Below, piece by piece: positions 1,144 to 23,929 of a DNA stretch of 64,000 nt. The translations under genes and the position numbers were made by a program. Within the stretch, counting starts at the first letter, position 1, and the number at the start of each line of letters is the position of its first letter. The stretch is from the NCBI RefSeq assembly GCF_000379625.1, contig NZ_KB903222.1, forward strand, positions 193 to 64,192, in the 5' to 3' direction. The notes beneath the pieces are model-generated. The model was not told the DNA's origin. It saw only the letters and a list, made by a program, of their open reading frames with translations, and made no database searches. This DNA is from Actinomycetospora chiangmaiensis DSM 45062 (GTDB taxonomy: Bacteria; Actinomycetota; Actinomycetes; Mycobacteriales; Pseudonocardiaceae).

Positions 1144-1171
1144 CATCGCGATAACCGGCCTTAACGCGGCA
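1144..1171 (+). repeat. dif-like site D1
   Basis: Left arm CATCGCGATAA, spacer CCGGCC, right arm TTAACGCGGCA. This is the leftmost recognised member of the family. The right arm has one mismatch to consensus and the left arm two. It abuts the truncated resolvase fragment. Confidence 0.75.
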
Positions 1172-1185
1172 TCCGATCGCTCCGC

Positions 1186-1329
1186 CTGGTCGCGTGCGTC
1201 CACTCGGCTCCATCCGGCGGCGTGCAGCGCGTCCCGCTGAGCGTCGAGATTTTGATCATCGGTCGAGACTCTGGCGTAGCCCACCACGGACACGTTGCTG
1301 CCGTGGGTAGGAGCACGAAGTTGTTTCAC
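1186..1329 (-). pseudogene. Serine recombinase/resolvase N-terminal fragment
   Basis: Read on the minus strand from 1329, the peptide contains VGYARVSTDDQNLDAQRDAL. This is the N-terminal block of the resolvase/invertase family, including the catalytic Ser of the ARVST motif. Similarity ends after about 48 residues, near 1186, and only 15 bp further on the dif-like site D1 (1144-1171) begins. The rest of the catalytic domain and the DNA-binding domain are absent. The fragment cannot be an active recombinase. Its abrupt loss of homology beside a site suggests a recombination join, which is an inference. Confidence 0.75.
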
Positions 1330-1534
1330 ATGCGATTACAACGTCGACGATGAGATCCTTGACTCCGGACACGGGTTCTGCGACGTGATCGACCAGCAGG
1401 ACCAAGATCATCCGCGACTGTCCCGCAGACCGTCGTTTGTTGACTCCCGTACCGCTGGTCGAGGACTACGAGCGGGTGCTGACACGAGCGTCGCCGAGGA
1501 GTGGTGGAATGTGACAGGAGGGGAATGTGGTAGC

Positions 1535-2293
1535 TCACCCTCCATAAATCGCGCCATGTAGCGCGGGGGTCATGGCTCCGGGTTCAGTGAGCTGCTGCCA
1601 CTGGTAGTGAGTAAACGACATCTGCCGATGGATCCCTTCGGATGCATTCGAGCAGGTGAAATTGTCCGATCCGTTAAATCCGGAGTTCGGATTGTACCAA
1701 TAATAGACCACGCTCTTGTCCGATCCGAGCCAGGTGAACTCGAAAAACCCTGAAGCAGGGGAAACCTGCGTTTGCGTTGGTTTGTCGCTGACACTGAGAT
1801 CGCAGGTCTGAGCCAGCTTTTCGTACGTGCAGGTCAAGGTCTCTCCGGGTTTCGCGCAACCCAACGGAGTTGTTGTCGACGAATCTATCGACGATGTCGC
1901 CGTGCCCGCCGGAAGATTGGAGATGACGACTACGACAAGGAGGACGACAACCGCCGCGAAGGCCCATGCTGTCCAGCCCCTTATCGAAACGCGACTCCAG
2001 GAGAACCGAGCAGCCCAAGCATCGGGCCCGGGCAGGCCGAGGGTGTGCCGGCCGTCCCCACCTCGTCCGTCTTGAGGCGCGTTCCACCACCCGGCCGTAC
2101 CTCCTAAGAGTGGGGGGGCTTGGGATGACTCCGGAAAGGGCGCCGCACGAGCGCCGCAAATCCCGCAGAACGCGTCCGAGCGAGACAATACGTGGCCTCG
2201 TTCGCAGCAGATGTCATAATCGGGAGACGACACGCCAAACCCCCTCCGAGCGTGGACCCCCCGCAATGTGTCCCGAAATTCTGGGGCTTGCAA
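1535..2293 (-). CDS. Zinc-ribbon, single-pass membrane protein of unknown function
   Basis: About 252 residues if started at 2293; a GTG about 20 codons in (VSSPDYDICC) is an equally good start. The N-terminus has a zinc-ribbon-like pattern, CERGH then CGICGAR, as in many actinobacterial zinc-ribbon membrane proteins. A hydrophobic segment near residues 110-130 (FAAVVVLLVVVVISNL) is followed by a Ser/Thr-rich linker and an extracytoplasmic domain with Cys pairs and several aromatic residues. The expected topology is cytosolic zinc ribbon and external C-terminal domain. Its G+C is visibly lower than the backbone. No function is recognised. Confidence 0.7.
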   Translation of the reverse strand: MQAPEFRDTLRGVHARRGFGVSSPDYDICCERGHVLSRSDAFCGICGARAAPFPESSQAPPLLGGTAGWWNAPQDGRGGDGRHTLGLPGPDAWAARFSWSRVSIRGWTAWAFAAVVVLLVVVVISNLPAGTATSSIDSSTTTPLGCAKPGETLTCTYEKLAQTCDLSVSDKPTQTQVSPASGFFEFTWLGSDKSVVYYWYNPNSGFNGSDNFTCSNASEGIHRQMSFTHYQWQQLTEPGAMTPALHGAIYGG

Positions 2294-2713
2294 CCTCGTT
2301 GCCCCGAAGGTGTGAACCTCACAACATTCCCTTTTGACAGCGGGGTCAAGCTAGCACCCACCAGTTGCTCGGCTTCTTGCGCAGTATCGCGACGTCGCCC
2401 TGACGTTAAGGATGGCTTCGGCGCACGATCTTTGAGCAGCAGGGCCGGCCCTCGTGGAACGTCAGGCCAGAAAGCCGACACGTAGCCTGGTCACCGACCA
2501 CCCAGCGTGGACGGAGGAACGCGTCTCATCGATCGCTGCCTCGTTCCGTACGTACTGCTCGTCCTCGAATGCAGCGTCCTCCTTGCCCTCCGGGCGCCCC
2601 CGGTCGGGCTGATCTTCAGTCCAACGGGTGAACATCGGACCCTGGTGCAGCGTTTGCCCAACTGGCCACGATGAAGCATGTACTTGAACTGGTGCGCCAC
2701 CTGGGGGGGACAG

Positions 2714-2863
2714 ATGGCAAGTAAGTGCGAACGATGCTTCAAGGTGCTGAACACATGCCAGGCGTGCAAAGGCAGAGGTCAGACTTCTTGGTCTACGTGT
2801 CCAAAGTGCCGCAATACTGGTCTGGTGTGTGCAACACACGAGGGCTTCTGGAAACTCTCGTAG
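2714..2863 (+). CDS. Small DnaJ-type zinc-finger protein
   Basis: A 49-residue protein starting at ATG 2714, with a G-rich Shine-Dalgarno-like run (2703-2710) just upstream. It holds CERC, CQACKGRGQ, CPKC and a further Cys before ATHEGFW, so four Cys pairs or near-pairs resembling the CxxCxGxG zinc modules of DnaJ. An in-frame ATG at 2678 would add twelve residues but lacks a ribosome site. No J-domain is present, so it is a free-standing zinc-binding peptide rather than a co-chaperone. It may be co-transcribed with the gene at 2963. Function unknown. Confidence 0.6.
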   Translation: MASKCERCFKVLNTCQACKGRGQTSWSTCPKCRNTGLVCATHEGFWKLS

Positions 2864-2962
2864 AGCGGCCGACCGCTCTGCCCGTGACGCCCTCAGAACG
2901 TCGCCCGGGTAGAAACCTAGCGAAAGATTTCAATAGGTATTGCAGGAAGCGGAGTCCCAACG

Positions 2963-3361
2963 GTGTCTACAACTTGGTCAGAGCTGCGTGTCTACCTTGA
3001 GAACAACTACGTGATCGCCGGGGTGTCCCCGTACGGTCAGCTTGTCATCAAGTTCGACTTTCCTGACGGACGCCACCAAATGGTGATGGTCTCGCAAGCG
3101 ACTCGACAGAGTACTGGCGAGGAGTGGGTTCAAATTGAATCGGTCGTAGCTCACGCCAGCGATGTCAATCTACACAAACTTCTAGACTACGTTAAGCACC
3201 AGCTGATTGGTGGACTCGCCAAGAACGAAGACTACGTGACAGTGAGGCATTCGATGCGTCTTCTTGACATGAGGCCGGCGGAAATCAACGTCCCCCTCTA
3301 CCTTCTGGTCAATACGGCCGACTACCTCGAGTCGACGAACGGGCAGCCAGACCGCTTCTAA
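2963..3361 (+). CDS. YbjN/type III chaperone-fold-like hypothetical protein
   Basis: 132 residues from a GTG start, with AGGAAGCGGAG about ten bases upstream. The pattern is a compact alpha/beta protein: an N-terminal helix, then strands (YGQLVIKFDF, HQMVMVSQAT, EEWVQIESVVA), a helix (NLHKLLDYVKHQL) and a final hydrophobic segment. This resembles YbjN or secretion-chaperone-like folds that occur as small single-domain proteins in actinobacteria. The assignment comes from fold impression only. No catalytic residues, signal peptide or membrane segment is evident. It is the last gene before site D2. Confidence 0.6.
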   Translation: MSTTWSELRVYLENNYVIAGVSPYGQLVIKFDFPDGRHQMVMVSQATRQSTGEEWVQIESVVAHASDVNLHKLLDYVKHQLIGGLAKNEDYVTVRHSMRLLDMRPAEINVPLYLLVNTADYLESTNGQPDRF

Positions 3362-3517: not shown

Positions 3518-3545
3518 TGCCGCGATAATCGGAGTTATCGCGCTG
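3518..3545 (+). repeat. dif-like site D2
   Basis: Left arm TGCCGCGATAA (perfect consensus), spacer TCGGAG, right arm TTATCGCGCTG. It lies in a 213-bp gap between the D1-D2 genes and the molybdenum hydroxylase operon. Its spacer is identical to that of D11 at the far end of the array. Confidence 0.9.
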
Positions 3546-3574: not shown

Positions 3575-4057
3575 TCATCGATGTGCGCTCGGGGCGGCGT
3601 GGACGGCTGTGGCGATCTGTTGGTAGCCGGTGCATCGGCAGAGGTTGCCGTCGAGTTCGGCGGACAGGTCCGCTGGGACGGGGTCGCGCCGGAGGGCGGC
3701 GACGGTGCACAGCACGTGCCCGGCCAGGCAGAACCCGCACTGGAAGGCGCCGGCGTCGAGGAACTCCTCCTGCACGGGGTGGAGGGCCCCGTCGTCGCCC
3801 TCGAGGCCTTCGAGGGTCTCGACGACGCGTCCCCCGATCCGGCCGACGGGCACGAGGCAGGACTTGAGCGGCGTGCCGTCGACGAGGACCGTGCAGGCGC
3901 CGCAGTCGCCGTTGCGGCAGCCGAGGTGGGTGCTGTAGAGGGACAGGTCCTGGCGGAGCACGTCGACCAGTGCACGGCCACCGTCCACGGCCAAGGTCAG
4001 CTGCACTCCGTCGACGGTCGTGGTCACCGAGGTGATGGCGTCGGTCGTGGTGCTCAT
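3575..4057 (-). CDS. (2Fe-2S) subunit of a xanthine dehydrogenase-family hydroxylase
   Basis: 160 residues from ATG 4057. The N-terminal plant-type ferredoxin domain has CRNGDCGACTVLVDG plus a downstream Cys. The C-terminal all-helical domain has CGFCLAGHVL and CRCTGYQQI, giving the usual two [2Fe-2S] clusters of the small subunit. It relays electrons from the molybdopterin subunit to FAD. Its start overlaps the end of the FAD-subunit gene by 4 bp (ATGA), so the order moco-FAD-FeS forms one operon transcribed leftward. Length is normal for the family. The physiological substrate cannot be read from this subunit. Confidence 0.93.
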   Translation of the reverse strand: MSTTTDAITSVTTTVDGVQLTLAVDGGRALVDVLRQDLSLYSTHLGCRNGDCGACTVLVDGTPLKSCLVPVGRIGGRVVETLEGLEGDDGALHPVQEEFLDAGAFQCGFCLAGHVLCTVAALRRDPVPADLSAELDGNLCRCTGYQQIATAVHAAPSAHR

Positions 4058-4932
4058 GCGGGGTCTCCGTTCAGGGCTCGGGAGAGGGCGCGGGCTGCGA
4101 CGGCCCCGGCGACGCGGCGGCGGTAGGTGGCGTCGGCCTGTTCGTCGGTCCACCAGTCGGGGTCGGCGGCCTCGACGAGGTCGCGCAGTCCGGTGCGGGC
4201 CGAGGGGTCGGCGTCCGCGGCGCGGACGGCGAGGTCGGGCGGGACGTCGACCGTCACCGGAACGGCGGCGACTGCGCCCAAGGAGACGCTGACCGCGCTG
4301 ATCGAGCCGTTGCCCGTGTGGGCGAGGAACGCGGAGGCGGTGGCGACTGGCCAGCCACTGCCCCCGTGCTTGAGCTTGGCGTAACCCCAGGACCCGGAGA
4401 TGTCGGGGACCTCGACGGCGACGAGGAGTTCCCCCTTCTTGAGCGCGGTGGCGAACGGACCGCGGAAGAACTCGCGGGCGGCCAGCCGACGTTCGCGGGA
4501 GGCGTCGGCGAGCACGAGGTCCGCGTCGAGGGCGACGAGCGCGCCGGGCACGTCGGAGGAGGGGTTGGCGTAGCAGGCCGACCCGCCGACGGTGCCCTGG
4601 TTGCGGATCTGTGGGCCGCCGGTGATGCCGGCCGCGAGGATCCGCAGCAACATCGGGGTCTGCGGTGAGCGCGCGAGCGCGCCGTAGGTCACGGCGGCTC
4701 CGAGCGTCGTCACGCCGTGGCCTTCGGTGGTGATGCGGTCGATGCCCGGGAGCCGGGCGAGGTCGACCAGGCGACGCGGGGTGGGCACGTCACGGGCGAG
4801 CCGCGGGTAGACCAGGGTGCCGCCGCCGATGACGGTGGTGGGTCCGCCGTCGGCGAGGAGGTCGAGGGCGGCCCTGCGCGTGGTCGGGGCGAAGTACCCG
4901 GTCCGCTCGGTGGTGGTCGTCGGTGCGGTCAC
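4054..4932 (-). CDS. FAD-binding subunit of a xanthine dehydrogenase-family hydroxylase
   Basis: 292 residues from a GTG at 4932. It has the FAD-binding motifs of the CoxM/CutM medium subunit: TVIGGGTLVYP near residue 35 and RNQGTVGGSACYANPSSD near residue 110. A C-terminal CO-dehydrogenase flavoprotein domain follows. It transfers electrons from the iron-sulphur subunit to FAD and then to an unknown acceptor. It overlaps the large-subunit stop and the small-subunit start by 4 bp each, which indicates translational coupling. The reading frame continues open upstream to 6714, but that part is antisense-frame noise over the large subunit. Confidence 0.92.
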   Translation of the reverse strand: MTAPTTTTERTGYFAPTTRRAALDLLADGGPTTVIGGGTLVYPRLARDVPTPRRLVDLARLPGIDRITTEGHGVTTLGAAVTYGALARSPQTPMLLRILAAGITGGPQIRNQGTVGGSACYANPSSDVPGALVALDADLVLADASRERRLAAREFFRGPFATALKKGELLVAVEVPDISGSWGYAKLKHGGSGWPVATASAFLAHTGNGSISAVSVSLGAVAAVPVTVDVPPDLAVRAADADPSARTGLRDLVEAADPDWWTDEQADATYRRRVAGAVAARALSRALNGDPA

Positions 4933-7310
4933 GGTGCCACCTCGAGGAGGGCGGAGAGGTCGGTGACGCCGTCGAGGACGGCGAGCACGCGGGCCGGGGT
5001 CAGCGGGGTCCTGGTCGGGTGGCCCGCGGCGCCGAGGGCATCGCGGACAGCGCCGGCGATCGCGGCGGCCGACCCACCGACACCACCCTCGCCCGCGCCC
5101 TTGGTGCCGAGCTCGGTGAACGGGGAGGGCGAGACCAGGTGGGCGCTCGCGATTCGCGGGATGTCCGGGTGGCGAGGGAGGAGGTAGCGCTTGAAGTCCG
5201 AGCTGGTGGGGGTGCCGTCGGGATCGAAGCCCTCCTCCTCGTAGAGGGCGATCCCGACGCCCATCGCGACGGCACCGTGCAGCTGGGCGTCGACGAGTTT
5301 CTGGTTGATGACGGTGCCGCAGTCGTGGACGGCAGCGAGGCGCTCGATGCGGACGCTGCCGGTCTCGACGTCGACGAGCACCGCTGCGACGTGCACCGAG
5401 TAGGAGTACGTCGGGTACTGCTGCAGGCGACCGTCCTGGTCGGGGATGGACTGGAGATTCTGCGGTCCGTAGGTGCGGGTGCTCTCGAGCTGCAGGCCTT
5501 CGACACCGGGCAGCGCGTCCCCGAGGGTGCGCACACCGGCGATCAGCGGGCCGACGGGGATGGCGCGTCCGGAGTCGTCGTCGACCCGGAAGAGGCCGTC
5601 GGCAGCGCGGATCGTCTGCACGTCCGCACCGAGCAGGGCGGCGGCGCTGCGATCGAGACCGGCGCGGAGGTCTCGCGCGGCGAGCCAGGCGGCGGTGCCG
5701 CCGGTCATGACGGCGCGGCTGGAGAAGCTCCCGGAGCCGAAGGGCGTGCGGTCCGTGTCGCCCTGCACCACCCGCACCGACGAGACGGGGAGACCCAGAG
5801 CGCCGGCGACGAGCTGGGCGATCGCGGTCTCGCTCCCGGTGCCGGGGCTGGTGACCCCGGTGAGGACGGTGGCGTGACCGGAGGTGTCGAGTCGGACGGT
5901 GGCGGTCTCGAAGCCGCGGGAAAGGCTGCCGGCGTAGTCGATGCCTTCCGGGGTGAGTTCGAAGCCGACGCCGATCCCGAGGCGTTCCGTTCCCGCGGTG
6001 GAGCTGCTCTGCCGAGCGCGCAGGTCGTCGTAGTGGGCGAGGTCGAGGACCATGTCGAGGGCCCGGTGGTAGTCCCCGGAGTCGATCGTCATGGTCGAGG
6101 TGCGGCGCGGGAGCTGCTCGCCACGCAGGAGATTGCGTCGGCGGACCTCCACCGGGTCCAGGCCCGTCGCGGCCGCGACGTGGTCCATCACGGATTCGGT
6201 GACCAGGCAGGTGGCTTCCTTGCCGAAGCCGCGAGCTCCGTTCCACGGGCCTTTGTTGGTCATCACCGCACGCCAGCGGACCTCGAGGTCGGTGACGTCG
6301 TAGCCGCTGGGGAAGGTCGCCGCGGCGACGGCGGGCATGACGGGACCGGGGGTCGCGCAGAGGGCACCGATGTCGGCGTCGAGGTCGACCGACAGGGCGA
6401 GCACGCGTCCCGTCGGGTCGTACCCGGCCCGGTAGCGGGCCCGGTAGTCGCGGGCGCCGATCAGCAGGGCCTCGGCGCGGGTCTCGACCCACCGCACCGG
6501 GCGGTGCAGCCGCAGGGCCATCAGGCAGGTGAGGGGCTCCTCGGGCAGGCCCGGGAACTTGAACCCGAAGCCTCCGCCGAGGGGCGGGGCCACGACCCGG
6601 ATGTCGGACTCGGGCAGACCGAGCTGACGGGCGAGGTCCGCGCGCAGGCCGTGCGGCTGCTGGGTCGCCGCCCGGACGACGAGCCGTCCCTCGTCGTCGA
6701 CGCGGGCGATGCACCCCCGGGGCTCCAGCGGGACCGCGCTCCCCCGGCCCAGCGCGACCTCACCCTCCACGACGTTCGGGGCCGCTGCCAACACCGTCGC
6801 CTCGTCACCCTCGGAGACGACACCGGACATCACGACGTTGCCGGGCAGGGCCGGGTGCTGGGCTGGGGCGCCGGGCGCGGTGGCCGCCTCCACGTCGAGC
6901 AGCGGTGGCAGCGGCTCCGCGTCCACCACGACGAGCGCCGCGCCGCGGCGCGCCGCCTCCTCGGTGTCGGCGACCACGAGCGCTACCGGCTCCCCCGCGT
7001 ACCGAATCCGTTGGACCGGGAGGCACGGCAGCGTCAGGGGGCCGGCCGCGCCGGTCAGGTCCTCGGGGAGCAGGCACACCAGGTCCCCGACGAGCCCGGA
7101 CGCTGTGACGCCGGAGAGCACCGCCCGCACCCCGGGCTCGGCCAGCGCCGCGTCGGCCCGGACCTCGCGGATCGAGGCGTGGGCATGGACGCTGCGCACG
7201 AACACCAGGTGTAGGCAGCCCTCGGGCTGCTCGTCGTCGAGGTAGCGGACCCGCCCCCGTACGTATCGGTCCCCGTCGAGGCGCCGCACCGCACCACCGC
7301 CAGCATCCAT
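4929..7310 (-). CDS. Molybdopterin-binding subunit of a xanthine dehydrogenase-family hydroxylase
   Basis: 793 residues from ATG 7310. It has an N-terminal hammerhead domain (RYLDDEQPEG, HAHASIREV) and then the molybdopterin domain with PLGGGFGFK, NGARGFGKE, SPGTGSETA and the C-terminal GTKGAGEGG motif, whose Glu is the catalytic base in this family. The AYRCSFR loop of true CO dehydrogenase is not seen, so a heterocycle or aldehyde hydroxylase is more likely. It is the promoter-proximal gene, divergent from the TetR gene with a strong palindrome between. The neighbours (metallo-hydrolase, fumarylacetoacetase-like enzyme) suggest ring hydroxylation followed by ring opening. Substrate unknown. 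Confidence 0.92.
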   Translation of the reverse strand: MDAGGGAVRRLDGDRYVRGRVRYLDDEQPEGCLHLVFVRSVHAHASIREVRADAALAEPGVRAVLSGVTASGLVGDLVCLLPEDLTGAAGPLTLPCLPVQRIRYAGEPVALVVADTEEAARRGAALVVVDAEPLPPLLDVEAATAPGAPAQHPALPGNVVMSGVVSEGDEATVLAAAPNVVEGEVALGRGSAVPLEPRGCIARVDDEGRLVVRAATQQPHGLRADLARQLGLPESDIRVVAPPLGGGFGFKFPGLPEEPLTCLMALRLHRPVRWVETRAEALLIGARDYRARYRAGYDPTGRVLALSVDLDADIGALCATPGPVMPAVAAATFPSGYDVTDLEVRWRAVMTNKGPWNGARGFGKEATCLVTESVMDHVAAATGLDPVEVRRRNLLRGEQLPRRTSTMTIDSGDYHRALDMVLDLAHYDDLRARQSSSTAGTERLGIGVGFELTPEGIDYAGSLSRGFETATVRLDTSGHATVLTGVTSPGTGSETAIAQLVAGALGLPVSSVRVVQGDTDRTPFGSGSFSSRAVMTGGTAAWLAARDLRAGLDRSAAALLGADVQTIRAADGLFRVDDDSGRAIPVGPLIAGVRTLGDALPGVEGLQLESTRTYGPQNLQSIPDQDGRLQQYPTYSYSVHVAAVLVDVETGSVRIERLAAVHDCGTVINQKLVDAQLHGAVAMGVGIALYEEEGFDPDGTPTSSDFKRYLLPRHPDIPRIASAHLVSPSPFTELGTKGAGEGGVGGSAAAIAGAVRDALGAAGHPTRTPLTPARVLAVLDGVTDLSALLEVAP

Positions 7311-7327
7311 CGCTGCTCCCTGTCCGA

Positions 7328-7351
7328 ATCGAAGTGAGCACTCACTTCGAT
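7328..7351. promoter_or_regulatory. Palindromic operator between hydroxylase operon and TetR gene
   Basis: ATCGAAGTGAG and CTCACTTCGAT are perfect 11-bp inverted arms around a 2-bp centre (CA). The palindrome lies 18 bp from the large-subunit start and 50 bp from the TetR start. Its position and GTGAG..CTCAC core are typical of a TetR-family operator that controls both directions. Binding by the adjacent regulator is inferred. Confidence 0.75.
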
Positions 7352-7400
7352 GACGGGTATGGTGGGCGTCACCCTGGCCGGTGTCAACGAAGGGCGGCCG

Positions 7401-8003
7401 ATGACCATCCGCACCCGCATCCTGGCCGCGACCTCCGAGCTGATCCGCAGCGAAGGGTTCAGCGCGGTCACGACGAAAAAGATCGCCGCAGAGGCCGGCT
7501 GCGCCGAGGGCAGCATCTTCCGCATCTTCGGCGACAAGGGCGGGTTGCTCGCGGCCGTGCTCTCCTTCGGCCTAGCCGAGACCGGCACGCTCTACGAGGT
7601 CGTCGACAGGGCGAAGGAGACGTCCGATCCGGGGGATGCCCTGCGGGCCGTCACCGCGGCGCTGCGCGACTTCTACCGGGCCAGCTACCCGCTCATCGGG
7701 TCGGCTCTGGCCGACCGGGCGCTGTTCGACCGGTACTCGACCGCCCATCGCGAGGCGGGCACGGGACCGCAGCAGGCCTGGCAGCTCGTCCACGACGTGC
7801 TGGTATCGCACCGCGACGCGGGACGCATCGACGAGGGCGCAGACCTCGCGACGTGCGCGCTGCTCGTCGCGGGGGCCTGCCAGAACGCAGCCTGGGTCGA
7901 ACTCGTGTCCGGCCCCACTGCACTGCCCCACGGCGGCGCCACGGTGACCGACGACCTCGTCGGGACGCTGCTGCCCGTCCTGGTCCCGAGGAGGAACCCG
8001 TGA
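7401..8003 (+). CDS. TetR/AcrR-family transcriptional regulator
   Basis: 200 residues from ATG 7401, chosen because the HTH begins about ten residues later and GAAGGGCGG precedes it. An ATG at 7350 would add 17 residues. The N-terminal TetR domain reads RILAATSELIRSEGFSAVTTKKIAAEAGCAEGSIFRIFGDKGGLL, matching the helix-turn-helix of the family (quoted only to locate it; key stretch TTKKIAAEAGCAEGSIFRIF). The C-terminal ligand domain is unassigned. It diverges from the hydroxylase operon across the 7328-7351 palindrome and overlaps the next gene by 4 bp. It is probably a repressor responding to the pathway substrate. Confidence 0.9.
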   Translation: MTIRTRILAATSELIRSEGFSAVTTKKIAAEAGCAEGSIFRIFGDKGGLLAAVLSFGLAETGTLYEVVDRAKETSDPGDALRAVTAALRDFYRASYPLIGSALADRALFDRYSTAHREAGTGPQQAWQLVHDVLVSHRDAGRIDEGADLATCALLVAGACQNAAWVELVSGPTALPHGGATVTDDLVGTLLPVLVPRRNP

Positions 8004-8944
8004 GCACCTCGCAGGTCGACACCGACCCCGCGAACGCGACCGTCACCGAGGTCGCCGACGGCGTCTTCGCCTACGTCCAGCCCAACGGCAGCTGGATGAT
8101 CAACAACACCGGGTTCCTCGTCGCTCGCGACGGCGTGTCCGCGATCGACGCCTGCTCCACCGAGCGCCGCACCCGCGCCTTCCACGACACCATCGCCGGG
8201 GTCAGCAGCGCACCGGTGCGCACCCTGGTCAACACCCACCACCACCCCGACCACACGGCCGGGAACGGGCTCTTCCCCGGCGCGGCGATCGTCGCCCACG
8301 AGAACGCCCGCGCCGAGATGCGGACGCTGGGCCTGCCCCACAACTCCGGGGTGTGGACCGACGTCGACTACGGCGACCTGGACCTGACGCTCCCGTTCCT
8401 GACCTTCGCCGAGCGGATGACGCTGTGGGCCGACGACCTGCGCGCCGAGCTCCTCTACTGCGGCGGCCCCGCCCACACCACCAACGACGTCGTCGTCTGG
8501 CTGCCCGAGCAGTCAGTGCTCTTCGCCGGCGACCTGCTCTTCCACGGCGGCACACCGTTCCTGCTCTCCGGCTCCGTGCTCGGCGCCATCGAGGTCCTCG
8601 AAGGCTTCGTCAAGCCGCTCGGAGCCCGGACGATCCTTCCCGGCCACGGGCCGGTCGGCGGACCGGAGATGATCGACGAGGTGCTGGGCTACCTACGCTT
8701 CGTCCGCGACATCGCAAGCGACGGTCACGCCGCCGGAGTCCCCCCGCTGGAACTCGCCCGCGGTACCGACCTGGGGCCGTACGCGGCCTGGACGGACCCG
8801 GAGCGCATCGTCGGGAACCTGCATCGCGCCTACGCCGACCTGAGCGTGCCCGTGGCCGGTCGCGGCGGTCCGATCGACTTCCCGAGCGCCCTGGCGGACA
8901 TGGTCGCCTACAACGGCGGCCGACCATTGACCTGCCTGGCCTGA
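8000..8944 (+). CDS. Metallo-beta-lactamase-fold hydrolase
   Basis: 314 residues from a GTG that overlaps the TetR stop (GTGA), with GAGGAAC just upstream. The metal-binding motif THHHPDHTAGN lies near residue 77, followed by a second-site His (GGPAHTTND), Asp (FAGDLLFHGG) and His (LPGHGPVGG), so all usual metal ligands are present. This is the type found as a hydrolase in aromatic and heterocycle catabolic clusters. It is co-transcribed with the TetR gene and the following fumarylacetoacetase-like gene. Lactonase, amidohydrolase or thioesterase roles are possible; the sequence does not decide. Confidence 0.88.
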   Translation: MSTSQVDTDPANATVTEVADGVFAYVQPNGSWMINNTGFLVARDGVSAIDACSTERRTRAFHDTIAGVSSAPVRTLVNTHHHPDHTAGNGLFPGAAIVAHENARAEMRTLGLPHNSGVWTDVDYGDLDLTLPFLTFAERMTLWADDLRAELLYCGGPAHTTNDVVVWLPEQSVLFAGDLLFHGGTPFLLSGSVLGAIEVLEGFVKPLGARTILPGHGPVGGPEMIDEVLGYLRFVRDIASDGHAAGVPPLELARGTDLGPYAAWTDPERIVGNLHRAYADLSVPVAGRGGPIDFPSALADMVAYNGGRPLTCLA

Positions 8945-8954
8945 GGAGAACGAC

Positions 8955-9932
8955 GTGAAGCTCGCGACCTTCGAGTACGAGGGCGCCATCCACTGCGGGG
9001 TGGTGGACGACAACGGCCTTCACGCGCTGCCGGTCGGCACCTCCGTGGCCGGCCTGCTCGCCGACGGCGAGGAGGGCCTGCGCCGCGCCGGTGGCGCCGC
9101 GAGCGCCGACAGCATCCCTCTCGACCAGGTCCGGCTCCTCCCTCCCCTGGAGCCCCCGACGGTGCGGGACTTCGTCGCGTTCGAGGAGCACGTCGAAGGC
9201 GTGCGAAGGTCGGTCTCCAAGGAGGCCGGGGTGCCCGAGGCCTGGTACGACGCGCCGACGTTCTACTTCAGCAACCCCTACGCCATGGTCGGAGCGCACG
9301 ACGACGTCCCGGTCCCACCGGGTTCTCAGGTGCTCGACTTCGAACTCGAGGTCGCCGCGGTCATCGGACGTGAGGGCCGCGACCTCTCCCCCGAGCAGGC
9401 CCGTGACCACATCGTCGGCTACACGATCTTCAACGACTGGTCCGCCCGGGACCTCCAGTCCCACGAGATGCAGGTGGGTCTCGGTCCCGCCAAGGGCAAG
9501 GACACCGCGACGACCCTCGGCCCGTGGCTCGTGACCGCCGACGAGCTCGAGCCCCGTCGCGACTCCGACGGCTTCCTCTCCCTCGCTCTCACCGCCGCGG
9601 TCAACGGGCGGGTGGTCGGCGAAGACCTGCTGTCCAACATGGGCTGGCACTTCGAGGACCTCGTCGCCTACGCCTCCCGCGGCACCGTCGTCCGCCCCGG
9701 AGACGTCCTCGGCTCCGGGACCTGCGGCAACGGCGGCTGCCTCGGCGAACTGTGGGGGCGAGGCACGACGCGGCAAGACCTGCCCCCACTGGTCCCCGGC
9801 GACGTCGTCACCCTCACCGTAGAAGGCCTCGGCCAGGTGTCCAACAGAATCGTGGCCGGGGCCGACCCCGTCGAGATCCCCCGAGCCCAGCCACGCCCAC
9901 GAACGCGGCCAACGCCCGCCCCCGACCTCTGA
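8955..9932 (+). CDS. Fumarylacetoacetate hydrolase-family protein
   Basis: 325 residues from ATG 8955 with GAGGAG upstream, 10 bp after the preceding stop. The metal ligands of the FAH fold are visible as DFELEVAAVIG (Glu-x-Glu) and NDWSARDLQ (Asp), and the pocket motif GPAKGKD follows. Members hydrolyse C-C bonds of acylpyruvates or isomerise and decarboxylate ring-cleavage products. With the molybdenum hydroxylase and metallo-hydrolase this suggests a complete ring-hydroxylation and cleavage route carried on one block. The Pro/Arg-rich tail after residue 310 is unusual and may be unstructured. The gene ends 36 bp before site D3. Confidence 0.9.
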   Translation: MKLATFEYEGAIHCGVVDDNGLHALPVGTSVAGLLADGEEGLRRAGGAASADSIPLDQVRLLPPLEPPTVRDFVAFEEHVEGVRRSVSKEAGVPEAWYDAPTFYFSNPYAMVGAHDDVPVPPGSQVLDFELEVAAVIGREGRDLSPEQARDHIVGYTIFNDWSARDLQSHEMQVGLGPAKGKDTATTLGPWLVTADELEPRRDSDGFLSLALTAAVNGRVVGEDLLSNMGWHFEDLVAYASRGTVVRPGDVLGSGTCGNGGCLGELWGRGTTRQDLPPLVPGDVVTLTVEGLGQVSNRIVAGADPVEIPRAQPRPRTRPTPAPDL

Positions 9933-9968: not shown

Positions 9969-9996
9969 TGCCGCGATAAACGGCGTTATCGCGGCA
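9969..9996 (+). repeat. dif-like site D3 (best match)
   Basis: Left arm TGCCGCGATAA, spacer ACGGCG, right arm TTATCGCGGCA. The arms are perfect 11-bp inverted repeats and define the consensus. It closes the 6.4-kb catabolic block opened by D2. Confidence 0.92.
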
Positions 9997-14573: not shown

Positions 14574-14606
14574 AGTGCTGCGGCGGAACTGGGTCTGGGC
14601 GAGCGG

Positions 14607-15310: not shown

Positions 15311-15480
15311 GTTCACGACCCGGCTGGAGCGGCCGCGGGAGATGACCAGACCCTCGACTGTGAGCTGCTGCATCGCCCGGGTCGCCGTGGCGACGGTGGT
15401 CTACCACTCCGCGGCGAGAGGCCCGGGTGCTTGGGAGCTGCTGCTCGTGGCGGTAGGTGCCGGACTCAATCTCGGTCGCA
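15311..15480 (-). pseudogene. GntR-type winged-helix fragment cut off at D4
   Basis: Reading leftward from 15480, one frame gives EIESGTYRHEQQLPSTRA, the start of a GntR DNA-binding domain. A one-base shift then gives LAAEW, a stop, and TTVATATRAMQQLTVEGLV followed by ISRGRSSRVV, which is the recognition helix and wing. The domain is thus frameshifted and interrupted. Its missing N-terminus would fall on D4 (15483-15510), only a few bases away. The effector domain is absent. It is a second example, with the resolvase at D1, of a gene ending abruptly at a site. Confidence 0.7.
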
Positions 15481-15482
15481 GA

Positions 15483-15510
15483 TGCCGCGATAAATGGAGT
15501 TATCGCGGTA
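15483..15510 (+). repeat. dif-like site D4
   Basis: Left arm TGCCGCGATAA, spacer ATGGAG, right arm TTATCGCGGTA. The inverted match extends outward by GA and TC on the two sides. It lies 69 bp beyond the stop of the ATPase gene. Confidence 0.92.
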
Positions 15511-15578: not shown

Positions 15579-17663
15579 TCAGTCCTTCACCACTGCCTCC
15601 AGAACTTCAGCCATGCCAGCCGGTCGATAGGATGCCTCTGCCATCTTGTCCAACACTAAATTGCGGAACACTACATAAGATATCCCTTCAAGGTGTTGAT
15701 CGACTAAGCTGTTGAGTAGCCTTCGGCCAGGAAATTCCTTCTTCCAAGTGCCCGTATCCAGCGCCGCAATCAGGCTTTCGCGAAACTCAGCTTCCCTTTC
15801 CTCAAGCCCGCCGGTCGTGACTAGATCGTGGGCAGCGGCTGCAACCCTCTCAGCCGAACCCTTGATCGATGGAATCAGGTCAGATGCAGGCGTCCTAGTC
15901 GTCGGATTTGCACCGACCCTAATACTTGACACCAACCGATCATTGACCTCGCCCTGTAGAAATTCGAGAACCAAGCGTTCAACAAGGTCTTTTGCGCTCG
16001 ACAAAAGCCATCCCTCGATATCCTGCTCTGACGGAGTTTTCGTAGTGCCCCGGACAGCGAGGATCGCCTTTCGAAGATAGGACGGATCCAATAGGTAGTT
16101 TTCGATATGGTAACTATCCCATTTCATCACGTTGTCCCCGGCAGCTGACTCAAGCGAAGAATGGTCGCGATCGGTAATAGCGTAGAAGCGGTCGGCTAGT
16201 CCCGCGTCCTCCGCTGCCTGCGACAGCACGGCATAGAGGTCGCGTACACGACTCTTGTTTCCTCCAGAGACAAGGTTTACCCGCTTCTCGAATTCAGGGA
16301 AGAGGCGGCCAATGATCTCTACATCGACAGCTGAGTCCGGGTCACCTTCGACAATAACTACCTTGCCGCGAGGGCGGTAAGCAGCAAGATCTCCAACGAT
16401 ATCGACAACGGCCCTCTCCATTTCGTCGTTTGCCGAAATCGCGATTGCCTGAGAGTCTGGAGCGTCTGGTCCAGCGGCGGAGGCCATGTGAAAGACGGAA
16501 TAGGTCTGCCTACCAACTGCCTGTCGCAACAGGGCGTCTGAATGAGTGACCAGCCATAGCTGGTTCCCCAGTTCACTGCCTAGGTATTTATGGTAAAAAT
16601 CAGGCATGCCTTGGAGCAATCTCGGGTTTAAGTGAAGCTCCGGTTCGTCGATCAGCAGCACCGAGCTGTGAGGCGCGGAGTTGCGTAGGCGTAGGTAGCC
16701 GTAAACCAATTCTTTCTCGCCAGAACTAAGCTCGTCGATATCATGAGCGGGTTTCCCGTCGATCCATACCGGGAAATCAACTAAACCTGCTGGACTTGCG
16801 CGAGGACCGTGATACGACTTATCTGGAAAAAATTGCTCGAAGAGAGCCGTCAGGGTCTCGTTTAGGTCGGGAAAACGACCGGCTACGCCCGATTTCTGCG
16901 CTATCGTTTCTCTAACATAATGCGCGGCTAACTCAGACTTCACGTTCTTGTACTTCTCACGCCAGTTGTACAGCGACTGCGTACGGCGCTGTTCAGTCAC
17001 CGCGTCGAGATTGAGGTTCACGCCTCCCACTGCTTCTCGTTCGTAGATGCGAGAAGCGCTGTGGTACTCCAACACGCCTAGAGCGCCTGGCTCGTAATTC
17101 TCAAACACCATCTGAATTGGTAAGCACTCATGGATGAGCGGATGCCCAAGCGGGTTGACCTCAATTCTCAACTTGAAGCTGGGCGCACTCAGCTCCGCTT
17201 TCAACTGCTCGGCCCGCTCTGCCGCTCTGTTGGCGACAGCGTCGCCATGGATTTGTAACAAGGGAATAGTTGAGAGGTGGAATCCGACCCCGCGTACATC
17301 AACGTTCGCGATCTCACGCCACACCAGGGGTACAACAACCTGTGTCGCTCGATCGTGCAAGAAGCGCACTTCGCGCTCTGACAGCTCCATTGCTGCCTCG
17401 ATAACCATAGAGCGGTTGGAATCCCGCAACAGGCCCGATAACTCGCCCGGCGTGTTCGGGTTAATGCCGAATTCGCCGAGCCACATCTGATACTCGTTAG
17501 CCTGATATCCGCCGTAAAGAGATTTGAGTAGTCGCATTGCGTCGAGAATGCACGACTTTCCACACCCATTGGGCCCCGCTACAAGAACAAGGTCCTGTAA
17601 GTCGTCGAGGTTTAGGCTTCTGATGCCTCTAAAGTTCTCCACGCGAAAACTCGTAAAACGCAA
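15579..17663 (-). CDS. OLD-like AAA ATPase with TOPRIM/DUF4435-type C-terminus (predicted defence protein)
   Basis: 694 residues. I place the start at TTG 17661-17663 because AAGGTGGGG lies 6 bp upstream and the ATPase begins at once (RFTSFRVENFRGI). The split ATPase has Walker A GPNGCGKS (30-37), signature LSSGEKE (312-318), Walker B LLIDEPELH (336-344) and H-loop His374. The C-terminal part has VEGDPD (438-443), ITDRD (496-500) and HIENYLL (519-525), as in TOPRIM/DUF4435 nuclease-like domains. Such ATP-gated nucleases act in phage or plasmid defence. It stands alone between D4 and D5 and is visibly AT-rich against the backbone. Defence is inferred from the family. Confidence 0.82.
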   Translation of the reverse strand: MRFTSFRVENFRGIRSLNLDDLQDLVLVAGPNGCGKSCILDAMRLLKSLYGGYQANEYQMWLGEFGINPNTPGELSGLLRDSNRSMVIEAAMELSEREVRFLHDRATQVVVPLVWREIANVDVRGVGFHLSTIPLLQIHGDAVANRAAERAEQLKAELSAPSFKLRIEVNPLGHPLIHECLPIQMVFENYEPGALGVLEYHSASRIYEREAVGGVNLNLDAVTEQRRTQSLYNWREKYKNVKSELAAHYVRETIAQKSGVAGRFPDLNETLTALFEQFFPDKSYHGPRASPAGLVDFPVWIDGKPAHDIDELSSGEKELVYGYLRLRNSAPHSSVLLIDEPELHLNPRLLQGMPDFYHKYLGSELGNQLWLVTHSDALLRQAVGRQTYSVFHMASAAGPDAPDSQAIAISANDEMERAVVDIVGDLAAYRPRGKVVIVEGDPDSAVDVEIIGRLFPEFEKRVNLVSGGNKSRVRDLYAVLSQAAEDAGLADRFYAITDRDHSSLESAAGDNVMKWDSYHIENYLLDPSYLRKAILAVRGTTKTPSEQDIEGWLLSSAKDLVERLVLEFLQGEVNDRLVSSIRVGANPTTRTPASDLIPSIKGSAERVAAAAHDLVTTGGLEEREAEFRESLIAALDTGTWKKEFPGRRLLNSLVDQHLEGISYVVFRNLVLDKMAEASYRPAGMAEVLEAVVKD

Positions 17664-17819: not shown

Positions 17820-17847
17820 GCCATCGATATGCGGCGTTATCGCGGCA
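17820..17847 (+). repeat. dif-like site D5
   Basis: Left arm GCCATCGATAT (degenerate), spacer GCGGCG, right arm TTATCGCGGCA (perfect). It lies 157 bp upstream of the ATPase start and 166 bp upstream of the antitoxin start. Confidence 0.75.
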
Positions 17848-18896: not shown

Positions 18897-18924
18897 GGGC
18901 GCGTTGGCCGCAATTATCGCGGCA
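18897..18924 (+). repeat. dif-like site D6
   Basis: Left arm GGGCGCGTTGG (degenerate, CGCG core kept), spacer CCGCAA, right arm TTATCGCGGCA (perfect). It lies 92 bp after the PIN gene and 62 bp before the recombinase start. Confidence 0.65.
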
Positions 18925-18986: not shown

Positions 18987-20093
18987 GTGAGCACCACAGG
19001 CCACAGCAGCCACGAGCACGCCGCCGATGACGGCCGGCGGTTACTGGCTCGGGTCCCGAACCAGCGCGCGGCGCCGCCGTCGGAGCTGCTCGGAGGTCTC
19101 GCCGAGGAGTACCTGCCCGCCGCGCTGTGGACCGACGCGACGGTCCGGCTGCTCGTGAGCGGCTGGCTGTCCAAATTCCGATCACCGAGAACACGCCGCG
19201 CCTACGCCGGCGACCTGCTGATCTGGCAGCGATGGTGCGCCGCACGGGGAGTCGATCCCCTGCGCGCGCGCCGGGTGCAGGTCGATCTCTACCTCGCCGA
19301 CCTCCTCGACGGCGGCGCCGCTCCCACCTCCGCAGGGCGACGGCTCTCGGCGCTGTCCTCGTTCTACCGCTTCCTGCTCGACCAAGACGACCTCGACATC
19401 ACCCGCACCAATCCCGCGGCCGCAGTCCGCCGCCCCGCCGTCGACGCCCAGCACTCCCCCACCCTCGGGCTCACCCGCGAAGAGGCCGTCGCCCTGCTCG
19501 ACACCGTCGACCGCGACCGCGGTCCCCAGCGGCGCCGGAACGCAGCGGTCCTCCGTCTGCTCCTACACAACGCACTTCGCGTCGATGAGCTCCTCGGAGC
19601 TGACCTGACTGACCTTGGACGCCATCCCGGCCGCGAGGACGTGCACGACACCCTGACCATCCGACGCAAGGGCGGCCGACGCGCCCGCATCGCCCTCGCC
19701 GAGGCCACCGTCGAGGCGCTGCTGCACTACCTCGAGCACCGAGCCGCTGCCGCCGGCTGCGGTCGACACGAACTCACCGGCCCCCTATTCGCCTCCCGCA
19801 CCGGGCGGCGGCTCACCCCGAAGGCGGCTTGGGTGCTCGTGCGGCGCACCGCTCGGGATGCCGGAATCGCGTCGTGGGCCAAGCTCTCCCCTCACTCGCT
19901 GCGCCACACCGCGATCACCCTCGCGCTCGACGCCGGCGCACCGCTGCGCGACGTGCAGGACTTCGCCGGCCACCGCGATGCCCGCACCACCCGTCGCTAC
20001 GACCGTGCGCGCGAGGACCTTGACCGCTCCCCCACCTACGCGCTGTCCGAGTGGCTCGCTAGAAGGCCATCATACGTTCCGGAGTCGTCATGA
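18987..20093 (+). CDS. Tyrosine recombinase (Xer/phage-integrase family)
   Basis: 368 residues from GTG 18987. The N-terminal SAM-like core-binding domain spans about 50-140 (LLVSGWLSKFRSPRTRRAY onward). The catalytic domain carries Arg198 (ALRVDEL), Lys228 (RRKGG), His303 and Arg306 (HSLRHT), His329 (AGHRDARTTRRY) and nucleophile Tyr338. All six active-site residues are present, so it should be active. It is the only gene between D6 and D7. The 28-bp dif-like sites are the natural substrate candidates, though host XerC/XerD could act instead. High GC like the backbone. No excisionase gene is seen nearby. Confidence 0.93.
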   Translation: MSTTGHSSHEHAADDGRRLLARVPNQRAAPPSELLGGLAEEYLPAALWTDATVRLLVSGWLSKFRSPRTRRAYAGDLLIWQRWCAARGVDPLRARRVQVDLYLADLLDGGAAPTSAGRRLSALSSFYRFLLDQDDLDITRTNPAAAVRRPAVDAQHSPTLGLTREEAVALLDTVDRDRGPQRRRNAAVLRLLLHNALRVDELLGADLTDLGRHPGREDVHDTLTIRRKGGRRARIALAEATVEALLHYLEHRAAAAGCGRHELTGPLFASRTGRRLTPKAAWVLVRRTARDAGIASWAKLSPHSLRHTAITLALDAGAPLRDVQDFAGHRDARTTRRYDRAREDLDRSPTYALSEWLARRPSYVPESS

Positions 20094-20162: not shown

Positions 20163-20190
20163 TGCCGCGATATTTGGAGTTATCGCGTCA
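20163..20190 (+). repeat. dif-like site D7
   Basis: Left arm TGCCGCGATAT, spacer TTGGAG, right arm TTATCGCGTCA, with the outer GA and TC extension also seen at D4. It lies 69 bp after the recombinase stop. Confidence 0.88.
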
Positions 20191-20511
20191 TCGTGATTGC
20201 GTCGCGCGCCGACCGGCCCCTGATCGTCCTCGATGCCCCTTGGACCTACTGCCGCAGCACGGTCGACTGCAGGGCTGCGGCCCGAGCCGGAGCCCTGTTA
20301 CCTTTTCGATCAAGCCCGGTGAGGCTTGCAGACCGCCGCCCACGGCATGGCTGAGCGCCCCTGTCGACGATGCTGGGGGGGTGTTGTCACCGTGGCCGGA
20401 GGGCGCCAACAACCGCTGATAGAGACCTGACCCGCTCGCGAAGTCTGTCCGTAACATGGCTGCCGGCGGGGGTGTCCAGGTCAGCCTGCCGCGACGAGCA
20501 AGGAGCCGCGG

Positions 20512-20727: not shown

Positions 20728-20952
20728 CTACCAGCGGCGTCGTCCTCTGGCGCTATCGTCCGCGAACAGATCACCGAGCGCGAGGAGCATCGCCACTCCG
20801 CACCAGCCAACGACACCCAAGGCGATTAAGGCGCCGATACTGACGAGCCAACCCGATCCTTCAGAAATGGGGTGATGTAAAGCGTAGTCCGCGTAGCAAA
20901 TATATATCAGGGCTGCCGCGACGCTCGCGCCCCGGACGAGAACCTGCAGCAC
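20728..20952 (-). CDS. Small two-pass membrane protein, unknown
   Basis: 74 residues from ATG 20952. Two hydrophobic segments occur (GASVAAALIYICYADYAL, and LVSIGALIALGVVGWCGVAM extending to LLALGD), with a short acidic and basic tail. No family is recognised. It ends at the edge of the IS110 fragment, so its C-terminus may be altered. Small membrane proteins of this shape recur in the D3-D4 and D7-D8 blocks. Confidence 0.5.
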   Translation of the reverse strand: MLQVLVRGASVAAALIYICYADYALHHPISEGSGWLVSIGALIALGVVGWCGVAMLLALGDLFADDSARGRRRW

Positions 20953-22063: not shown

Positions 22064-22091
22064 TGCCGAGACAGTGATCCTTACCGCGGCA
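22064..22091 (+). repeat. dif-like site D8 (degenerate)
   Basis: Left arm TGCCGAGACAG (8 of 11 consensus), spacer TGATCC, right arm TTACCGCGGCA (10 of 11). It lies 76 bp beyond the stop of the protease gene. Confidence 0.65.
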
Positions 22092-22167: not shown

Positions 22168-22854
22168 CTAGAAGTCCCGGACCTCACGCAATCTTCTCAG
22201 CCCGGAGCTGATCTCTGTTACATGGGTGATGCCCGCAGGCGTTCGGGCCAGCCCTTCGATGTCACCCTCAGGAGGATCTTGAACGTATTGACCCTTGATG
22301 ACGCCCAAGAACTTCCAGCGATTAGACCCGGTAACCTGGAAAACGGCAGGACCCCCGGAGAATCCTGGGTTTGCTATGCAATCGACGAATACACTCTTTA
22401 CGTCGTGCTCGAATTTCTGTCCCGCCAGAATTCCTTTCTTCACCAGCGGTAGTTCGAACCGGTCGGCCTCAGACCCGAGTTGCAGAGACAGTCCGTATGG
22501 GTGACCTAATAGAAAGACATCTTGAGAGAAGCCAGCGTCATCCATCCCTAATGGAAGGGAATCGTTCAGGAGTGCCCCGTGGTCCTCCGGAAAGTCGAAG
22601 ACGGCGATATCGACCCCTGGAAGCGGCTGACTTAGCCGCACCAGCGGCTTGTAGCTCCATCCGCTTCCTGTGATGAATGGCGCGCGGAAGTTGAAGTACT
22701 CCTCTGGCTCTCCAGTCGTAAGATGGTCCGCCGTGATCAAGACTTGTCGGCCGTCCAGCCTCAGCAAGGTGCCAGTCCCGTTTCCCTTCGTGAACGCATC
22801 CTCGCCCTGGACCTGGAGGACGCATTGCCACACTTCCGCCGTGATCACGCACAC
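22168..22854 (-). CDS. Trypsin-like serine protease, cytosolic type
   Basis: 228 residues from a GTG at 22854. The chymotrypsin-fold triad is visible as His44 (LITADHL), Asp82 (GVDIAVFD) and Ser166 (NPGFSGGPA), and GHPYG fits a strand before the second barrel. No signal peptide or membrane anchor precedes the protease domain, so it should act in the cytosol. Stand-alone intracellular trypsin-like proteases occur as effectors or partners in several prokaryotic conflict systems, but no sensor gene lies in the same block. Moderate GC. It is the only gene between D8 and D9. Confidence 0.8.
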   Translation of the reverse strand: MCVITAEVWQCVLQVQGEDAFTKGNGTGTLLRLDGRQVLITADHLTTGEPEEYFNFRAPFITGSGWSYKPLVRLSQPLPGVDIAVFDFPEDHGALLNDSLPLGMDDAGFSQDVFLLGHPYGLSLQLGSEADRFELPLVKKGILAGQKFEHDVKSVFVDCIANPGFSGGPAVFQVTGSNRWKFLGVIKGQYVQDPPEGDIEGLARTPAGITHVTEISSGLRRLREVRDF

Positions 22855-23103
22855 ATTCTACATACGCTGCACCGAGGGCTCTCTGCGCTCAACCCGGGAC
22901 CTTCTTCGAGCCTCCGACGGCCCCTGGTCAAGGAATCTCCGGGGGCCCACGTCGCTCCTACCTACTAACGCACCGCCGAGGCGACCCAAGAGAGCAATCG
23001 GGTGTCTGGGCTCCGCTTACCGGTGTGCTGCAGTAGGTTCCGTCGCCTACGCCTCGCTCTGGCCCAGCCGTCAGCAATAGTGACGAGTCTCAGTGGCGGT
23101 TCA

Positions 23104-23130
23104 TGCATGGATAACGGGGCTATCGCGACA
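23104..23130 (+). repeat. dif-like site D9 (degenerate, 27 bp)
   Basis: Left arm TGCATGGATAA, spacer CGGGG (one base short), right arm CTATCGCGACA. The outer TC extension of the right arm is kept. Confidence 0.6.
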
Positions 23131-23261
23131 TCGACGCCAGCTAGGGAACTAGCGGTCATCATGCGCGAGCTCGGGTGTGTCCCTGTCCTGCAATAGTTCC
23201 CAAGCCCGCCGATCTTCGGGTCGACGAGACCCTTAGCTCGTGTGGCCGCCGGCTCGCTGGC

Positions 23262-23465
23262 CTACGTCGCGGGAAATCCCGCCTGCTGGAGCGCTCGCAC
23301 TACGTCGTCACGAGACGGCGTGCACTCCTCGCAGGTTAGGAGGAGGGGGTCCGAGTCGTTCACCAAAATCTGCCCGTCCATCAGGATGTCTTCCTCGAGG
23401 ACGACACTAAAGAAGGCGTCCTCGTTTTCGATCAGATCCGCGCAGCGATAACATTTGCGATCCAC
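23262..23465 (-). CDS. Small CxxC zinc-binding protein, unknown
   Basis: 67 residues from GTG 23465, chosen because GGAGGGG lies 5 bp upstream; the frame is open to 23666 but that part is Pro/Arg-rich and non-protein-like. It has CYRCADLIENEDAFFSVV, an acidic middle (EEDILMDGQILVNDSDP) and CEECTP, so two Cys pairs likely bind zinc. A C-terminal helix (DDVVRALQQAGF) follows. No family is recognised. It is the only gene in the D9-D10 block. Confidence 0.55.
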   Translation of the reverse strand: MDRKCYRCADLIENEDAFFSVVLEEDILMDGQILVNDSDPLLLTCEECTPSRDDVVRALQQAGFPAT

Positions 23466-23796
23466 TTCGCCCCTCCGTTGCTCTGGCAGGTCTGCAGCTC
23501 CCGTAAACTCTTGTGGACGCGCACCGTCTCCGGGTGGGAGGTCCGGCAATACACGCCACGCGCGTGGTTCCGGTCGCCGCGCTGGGGCTTTCGGCTCCCG
23601 CTCCTCCACGGTTGGCTCGAAGACGTCGTGACCGAGGCCGGAGCCAGCCGAAGGAGCCCGACACATACTGAGCTTAGTCGTCCGCTCGTGCTTCCGTCAG
23701 CCGTCTCGATCCCGTCGGCCCACGGGCTCTCGGCCAACTCGCCGTCACCGCCTCCGGTTGGGATGCTGCGGGCCCGGTTCGGGAGTCCTAAGCAAA
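23466..23796. other. Gene-free stretch before D10
   Basis: Nothing recognisable apart from the upstream region of the small CxxC protein gene. Confidence 0.45.
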
Positions 23797-23824
23797 CATC
23801 GTGATAACAGGCGATATCGCGGCC
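23797..23824 (+). repeat. dif-like site D10
   Basis: Left arm CATCGTGATAA, spacer CAGGCG, right arm ATATCGCGGCC. Only 77 bp separates it from D11. Confidence 0.7.
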
Positions 23825-23901
23825 CGGGGCCTCGCCTCGCGCATCGCAAAGCAGGAATCGCGGGATGTGTTCGATTCAGACTGGATCTCAGCCAATACCA
23901 C

Positions 23902-23929
23902 TAGCGCGATAATCGGAGTTATCGCGGCT
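23902..23929 (+). repeat. dif-like site D11
   Basis: Left arm TAGCGCGATAA, spacer TCGGAG, right arm TTATCGCGGCT. Rightmost site found; the spacer is identical to D2. No further match was seen from here to 64000. Confidence 0.88.

Follow-up and report, generated by a model that had tools for sequence, protein, structure and literature searches.

Like-oriented arrays of 28-bp palindromic sites bound gene blocks that appear to be exchanged in Actinomycetospora, probably by an Xer-like recombinase of their own

What divides the first 24 kb of a stretch of DNA from Actinomycetospora chiangmaiensis DSM 45062 into blocks of unrelated genes, and which enzyme would exchange these blocks? The window, by which we mean the whole stretch of 64,000 nucleotides that was analyzed, starts 192 bases into contig C6 of the 5.86-Mb genome and carries between its positions 1144 and 23929 a row of 28-bp sites together with the gene of an Xer-like tyrosine recombinase. 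An earlier interpretation based on the letters alone (the sequence-only reading) had described a dif-like module array with eleven sites. The array consists of gene blocks bounded by sites that point in one direction, and we consider it likely that these blocks are exchanged by the recombinase encoded inside the array. Genomes, contigs and loci are designated by working labels starting with G, C and L, respectively.

A search for the form TGCCGCGATAA-N6-TTATCGCGGCA identified ten sites within this region, each with at most six mismatches in the 22 arm positions (Table 1). As a control we used ten first-order Markov shuffles of the window and the same arm pattern; they gave no match at six or fewer mismatches, five at seven and 102 at eight. 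The nine places with eight mismatches in the window therefore do not rise above noise, and the eleventh of the claimed sites could not be confirmed. The described layout of two 11-bp arms and a 6-bp spacer bordered by ATAA and TTAT was found in the array sites. A scoring matrix was built from 44 sites of the window genome and six others. With this matrix the ten sites reached 22.3 to 51.1, compared with a background maximum of 2.8 at 78,000 positions on both strands of window 25-64 kb; the sites at 17820, 18897 and 23797 (22.3-23.9) represent the fair test, because the other seven are among the 44 training sites. The rest of the window, 40 kb lying to the right of the array, contained no site at seven or fewer mismatches, and an Rfam scan of window positions 1-25000 revealed no RNA at the gathering thresholds. 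As far as gene ends allow a judgement, the sites lie mostly between genes, as had been stated, with the exception of the site at 17820, which is located inside the mechanically called open reading frame 15579-18611; the AriAB match of this frame begins only at residue 319.

The two arms of a site are mirror images, and the 44-site matrix extends this symmetry outward by GA...TC. Left and right arms match the consensus in 10.02 and 9.98 of 11 positions in the 42 better sites and in 9.42 and 9.89 positions in all 53. After the sites had been turned to put GG on the top strand, 41 of 44 showed a central GG in the spacer; we estimate that GG or CC together would occur by chance in about a quarter of cases at this G+C content. 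Site polarity was uniform in 11 of the 12 contigs with at least two sites and an unambiguous central GG, a count that leaves out seven of the 53 sites because they could not be oriented. The exception is a pair in G042 that lies 2.45 Mb apart and does not form an array.

The dif of the host is a different, single site. Exactly one copy of its core GATAATCGACATTAT is present in 16 of the 18 Actinomycetospora genomes; one base is changed in G189, and none was found in G227, which is 84% complete. The window genome has CGATCCGATAA TCGACA TTATGTCAGAT, and all eight genomes examined with flanks show CGATCCGATAA, TCGACA (once TCGATA), TTATGTCA and three variable bases. The Frankia alni dif, as given in PMC3025954, resembles the host dif of this genus. 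The array sites are thus a second kind of site, apart from dif. A site-like palindrome with a 5-bp spacer, CCGCGATAATGGAGTTATCGCGG, was seen in L005 2252-2274 (G000:C14:22252).

The sequence-only reading had pointed to the pdif modules of Acinetobacter plasmids, which are moved by XerC and XerD, as the closest parallel. These modules resemble the present array in having 28-bp 11-6-11 sites between unrelated modules, spacers that vary by site, and module shuffling, also beside a plasmid replication gene. On this view, the host XerC and XerD would handle the blocks as pdif-type modules, with the recombinase gene of the array as a passenger. The 11-6-11 layout with ATAA and TTAT next to the spacer agrees with this explanation, as does the left arm, which by eye agrees with the XerC-side arm of the host dif at seven of 11 letters, whereas the right arm does not contain TTATGTCA, as the host dif does, and agrees with it at six of 11 letters (by eye). 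In the strict sense the parallel fails: one arm of the XerC type and the other of the XerD type are characteristic of pdif, whereas here both arms mirror each other. In addition, neighboring pdif sites alternate in orientation and delimit C and D modules, according to PMC13141974, whereas the array sites point one way; the host dif is distinct and the recombinase in the array belongs to another subfamily, with 28-bp sites of its own. For these reasons we regard movement by the host XerC and XerD as unlikely.

Evidence for exchange comes from comparing loci of the seven genomes with sites. In 91 matches of at least 100 bp we counted 165 interior ends, leaving out within-genome matches at 99.5% identity or more, ends less than 60 bp from a locus end and sites scoring 20 or below. 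Fifteen of these ends coincide with a site in both partners, compared with a mean of 0.002 and a maximum of one in 2000 site shifts; one further end lies on a site in one partner only, with a null mean of 1.8. Flanking homology within 400 bp links 28 pairs among the 53 sites, not counting the self-overlapping pair 23797/23902; in 27 of them it is present on one side only, the sole two-sided pair being the interior of the recombinase block. In 20 of these one-sided pairs both partners match from within 50 bp of the site onward, and in the other seven the match lies 73-321 bp away from it in both.

Individual families illustrate these switches. The same right-hand DNA follows three unrelated left sides at window 17820, L057 3898 and L073 8461, and likewise at L004 15870, L003 80 and L056 7449; conversely, the same left side precedes three different right sides at window 1144, C20 1336 and L056 5616. 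The contigs C6 and C20 share 1.35 kb that end inside the site. Some junctions are three-way mosaics. L067 5200, read with GG on top, combines the left flank of L068 10839 with the right flank of L071 9644, the switch lying inside the 28 bp, and at L073 2231 the flank of window 23902 meets those of window 9969 and L001 11682. Single blocks bounded by sites were found beside different partners, as expected of mobile cassettes, and the same blocks recur at different loci next to different neighbors; a conserved block order, as in ordinary synteny, was not seen in the loci compared. The mobility proposed by the sequence-only reading therefore appears justified to the extent that the sites bound exchanged blocks. 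In two of the three families with common right-hand DNA the spacer is identical in all members (GTGGGC and GCGGCG) and in the third it is variable, so these few cases hint that the joint lies near the left edge of the spacer. By eye, an inverted repeat rich in G+C was noted immediately after the site with which one shared block begins (L003 108-140, L004 15898-15930).

These comparisons also bear on the view that a regulator binds the palindromes, or that they belong to a dispersed repeat, and that the homology breaks reflect ordinary gene turnover. Strong palindromes are typical of operator sites. The excess of breaks at sites over the shifted null, the switch of flanks on one side only, the uniform polarity and the 40 kb without sites to the right of the array all speak against this view, and it has very little probability in our judgement.

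A core locus was found both with and without blocks. In G075 a 4.2-kb block with two sites lies between two core genes, and in G042 an insert of about 10 kb occupies the same place, with a good site at one end and a decayed site (18.8 bits) at the other. In G000, G135, G098, G200 and G219 the locus is uninterrupted, with about 20 to 620 bp between the two core sides. No recognizable site is present in these five alleles. Within the window, site 4 interrupts a GntR-family gene, copies of which score 60 and 61 bits in G042 at a cut-off of 27; a 34-base match to this gene precedes the site at C27:20080. For the right flank of the array, a close match exists in one relative only (G250), and this match ends at a gene rather than at a site. 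A 7.2-kb insertion in G075 (L069 10152-17358), opposite the uninterrupted window positions 58707-58753, contains one array-type site 450 bp inside; it was dropped as evidence of exchange because its ends do not lie at the site.

The sites are concentrated in the genus. A consensus search of 297 family genomes with at most three mismatches in 22 positions found them in six of the 18 Actinomycetospora genomes, with 12, 10, 6, 5, 2 and 1 sites; 11 of the other 279 genomes have one each, and the reversed pattern matched in one of the 297. G098 has no match at this level and three more divergent sites. In the window genome the 12 places contrast with none for the reversed control pattern. Using a shorter core and two mismatches we obtained 19 places, eight of them in the first 24.2 kb of C6, three on C20, two each on C27 and C19 and one each on C14, C1, C5 and C26. 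An even spread over the genome, which would have spoken against a link to accessory blocks, was therefore not observed; the sites cluster. The 22-base core is present in nine viral contigs, none of which scores above 20 with the extended matrix, and for this reason we claim no link to phages.

The recombinase encoded in the array contains R198, K228, H303, R306, H329 and Y338, which are invariant in our alignment (A1; R-K-H-R-H-Y) and which we take to be the catalytic residues. Its nearest solved structure by sequence is a XerD. With the XerC and XerD models it scores 134-138 bits (cut-offs 279-335) and with TIGR02249, the model for integron integrases, 48.3 bits (cut-off 265), in each case below the threshold. 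A degenerate site lies immediately upstream of its gene, with a right arm that equals the array consensus letter for letter, and the same arrangement is found in G135:C36 (L057 4852). G135, taken as Actinomycetospora soli, encodes relatives at 87% and 62% identity. A second A. soli recombinase, a 47% relative (L056 10851-12068), has the perfect palindrome CTACATGATAA-N6-TTATCATGTAG right before its start.

Palindromes close to the recombinase gene are also seen in part of the wider family. Among the best 80 of 317 loci with related recombinases, 11-6-11 palindromes with an AT core are nine times denser within 1.5 kb of the recombinase match than farther away (24 near, 10 far). Spacers of 5 or 7 gave none near; a spacer of 8 gave 19 near, of which those printed are the same places read one base outward. 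An upstream 28-bp palindrome is present in 22 of 79 related loci (without L096), two of them in A. soli, and its arms co-vary with the protein (Mantel r 0.49, reached in none of 5000 permutations), also when the window type is left out. In 21 of these 22 loci, covering about 21 kb or less per locus, no second copy of the own site was found at five or fewer of 22 mismatches; L103 has one weak second copy 72 bp away. The same test finds nine, five, three and two array sites in the window, L056, L057 and L067, respectively. Genome-wide own-site matches, searched with a gap of 8 for CCGTGATA-type sites, numbered one each in four genomes of other genera (GTGATA-type) and in five Nocardioides genomes, and three in A. 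soli. Because the site is single in nearly all of these loci and in the nine other genomes searched, the usual state appears to be one enzyme with one site; within these searches, arrays were seen only in the genus of the window. A de novo search of 108 loci for at least three similar palindromes returned GC-rich chance groups only and also missed the known arrays of the window, L056 and L067, which makes it uninformative about the absence of arrays. The arrangement of one enzyme and one motif is shared with XerS/difSL, XerH and XerA, in which one Xer-like enzyme is tied to one dif-like motif; unlike in those systems, the site is multiplied here and bounds cargo. Those systems serve chromosome dimer resolution (PMC2731167, PMC3325230, PMC2958812).

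The findings on the recombinase fit the suggestion of the sequence-only reading that the system has its own enzyme. According to the mechanism that we propose, the array recombinase would bind both alike arms of a site, bring two such sites together and carry out strand exchange at the 6-bp spacer. Excised blocks would form circles that insert at other sites, and arrays in genomes lacking the recombinase gene would be relics, much like attC clusters without an integrase (CALIN).

A pile-up of integrative elements or cis-mobilisable remnants at one attachment site, each next to the last and with one integrase left, would also produce a single recombinase gene among several blocks and direct repeats as expected of attL and attR. 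Accretion of integrative and mobilisable elements and cis-mobilisable elements (IME/CIME) likewise places direct repeats around non-autonomous blocks beside one integrase. Related recombinases occur in 30 plasmid records, all below 60% identity, a RepA gene abuts a site in G135:C39, and several relatives contain fragments of the block 9997-15482 at a distance of 2-13 kb from integrase genes. Against accretion, there is no fixed attachment gene, since the sites lie at unrelated places and the uninterrupted alleles have none; some blocks are very small, for example L056 4534-5615, which measures 1.1 kb and has one long open reading frame, and single blocks occur beside different partners, with mosaic exchange at the sites. 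We therefore regard such a pile-up as improbable.

Several observations weigh against exchange by the array recombinase itself. Of the seven genomes with sites, only G000 and G135 encode a full-length close relative; G098 has a fragment of 71 residues, and in G042, G075, G200 and G219 only Xer-level matches were found, first with up to 20 candidates scored per genome and then again with all candidates scored. These four genomes contain sites, some of them near perfect, which favors the host XerC and XerD; arrays of this kind may be relics, or they may be the substrate of some other enzyme, possibly XerCD. Distant integrase domains lie near some sites in G075, where the tyrosine integrase domain C6:94605-94817 (29.7 bits) is located between two array sites and C6:131759 scores 28.9, in G219 (C9:35168, 21.1, below the cut-off) and in G135 (C38:10711 and C36:3610), and the actual enzyme could be one of these. 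In the window, as in L057, the left arm of the site upstream of the recombinase gene is degenerate. By the criterion used, 57 of the 79 related loci have no upstream palindrome, some contigs ending near the gene, and the Mantel correlation partly reflects shared ancestry. The match ends and flank pairs derive from about seven site families and are not independent. None of the five uninterrupted alleles holds a site scoring above 13, which bears on the seeding of new places. We stop short of high confidence in the array recombinase as the enzyme, because of the four genomes without a close relative and the distant integrases near sites.

Table 1. Sites and genes of the array region, with positions in the window.
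Feature	Position	Strand	Description
Site 1	1144..1171	+	CATCGCGATAA CCGGCC TTAACGCGGCA; 4/22 arm mismatches; C6 equals C20 up to the site, divergence inside the site
Site 2	3518..3545	+	28 bp; 3/22 arm mismatches
Block genes, sites 2-3	3575..9932	.	Molybdenum hydroxylase-type dehydrogenase (Fer2, FAD_binding_5, MoCoBD), TetR regulator, metallo-beta-lactamase-fold protein, FAA hydrolase
Site 3	9969..9996	+	28 bp; perfect consensus, 0/22 arm mismatches
GntR-family gene remnant	15311..15489	-	Broken at site 4; uninterrupted in two G042 copies (L243, L244)
Site 4	15483..15510	+	28 bp; 1/22 arm mismatches
AriAB-like gene	15579..17660 (start approximate)	-	PDLC02981, 617.7 bits, from residue 319 of open reading frame 15579-18611
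Site 5	17820..17847	+	5/22 mismatches; right-hand DNA also in G135:C36 and G098:C5, left-hand DNA not
Degenerate site	18897..18924	+	5/22 mismatches; right arm perfect, left arm not; no central GG
Xer-like tyrosine recombinase	18987..20093	+	368 aa; Phage_integrase and SAM-like domains (PF00589, PF02899)
Site 6	20163..20190	+	28 bp; 2/22 arm mismatches
Site 7, degenerate	22064..22091	+	4/22 arm mismatches; no central GG
Trypsin_2 domain protein	22168..22854	-	Pfam
Site 8, weak	23797..23824	+	6/22 arm mismatches
Site 9, right end of array	23902..23929	+	3/22 mismatches; left flank found again at another junction, G098:C5

The blocks differ in base composition, as had been stated, with G+C contents of 0.593, 0.725, 0.655, 0.548, 0.717 and 0.634 compared with 0.737 for window 24-64 kb. 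The cargo includes a catabolic operon. The AriAB-like gene presumably belongs to an anti-phage system of the PARIS type. A toxin-antitoxin pair, which had also been proposed, was not found among the 30 open reading frames of the window scanned with Pfam; the sole label of this kind was AAA_21 on the AriAB-like ATPase. A large helicase encoded on C20 matches the anti-phage proteins ProA and Hhe over part of its length and below the cut-off, and a MkoC/MkoA-like one is present in G200. On C19, left of site 15870, lies the gene of a tetratricopeptide repeat protein with a weak caspase match below the cut-off, and several cargo proteins at 56-58% G+C have no Pfam match. In L059 (G135:C39) a plasmid RepA_C gene (12457-14151) ends 26 bases before the site at 14178, so blocks may pass between plasmid and chromosome. 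The array also contains a fragment of an IS110-type transposase (window 20370-20843). At window 460-1240 a Methyltransf_19 gene is split over two frames, likely by a frameshift, and C20 has the same DNA. A 74-bp element at window 11045-11118, or the greater part of it, is found again in 16 of the 18 Actinomycetospora genomes (77-98% identity), often at several loci, and no open frame is obviously common to its copies.

In outline the array resembles integrons. In both, cassettes form one-way arrays, the integrase gene lies beside an incomplete site (IntI and attI in integrons), relatives carry arrays without integrase, such as CALIN, and much of the cargo has no assigned function. Unlike integrons, the present system has no recombinase with an IntI-level score, its sites are short palindromes that by eye do not have the attC layout, and its blocks reach 6 kb and include a divergent operon. 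By the tests that we ran, the array is integron-like in outline and dif-module-like in the form of its sites, and a member of neither group. To our knowledge complete integrons have not been found in actinobacteria. Among the matches listed from the open-license PubMed Central literature there was no such system in actinobacteria, which is not proof of absence.

Taken together, we give roughly even odds to a broader picture, that of an actinobacterial cassette platform: an Xer-like recombinase family, partly plasmid-borne and elsewhere coupled to one 28-bp site, whose site has been multiplied in Actinomycetospora into one-way arrays that would trade accessory blocks, including anti-phage genes, between chromosomes and plasmids. 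Two cassette systems have been well described so far, integrons and XerCD dif modules. If the picture is correct, a third platform with palindromic sites, one enzyme and one direction would indicate that such platforms arise repeatedly from Xer recombinases. It would account for some of the turnover of accessory genes in a phylum without complete integrons, and the 28-bp site would provide a simple rule for finding blocks with unknown defense genes.

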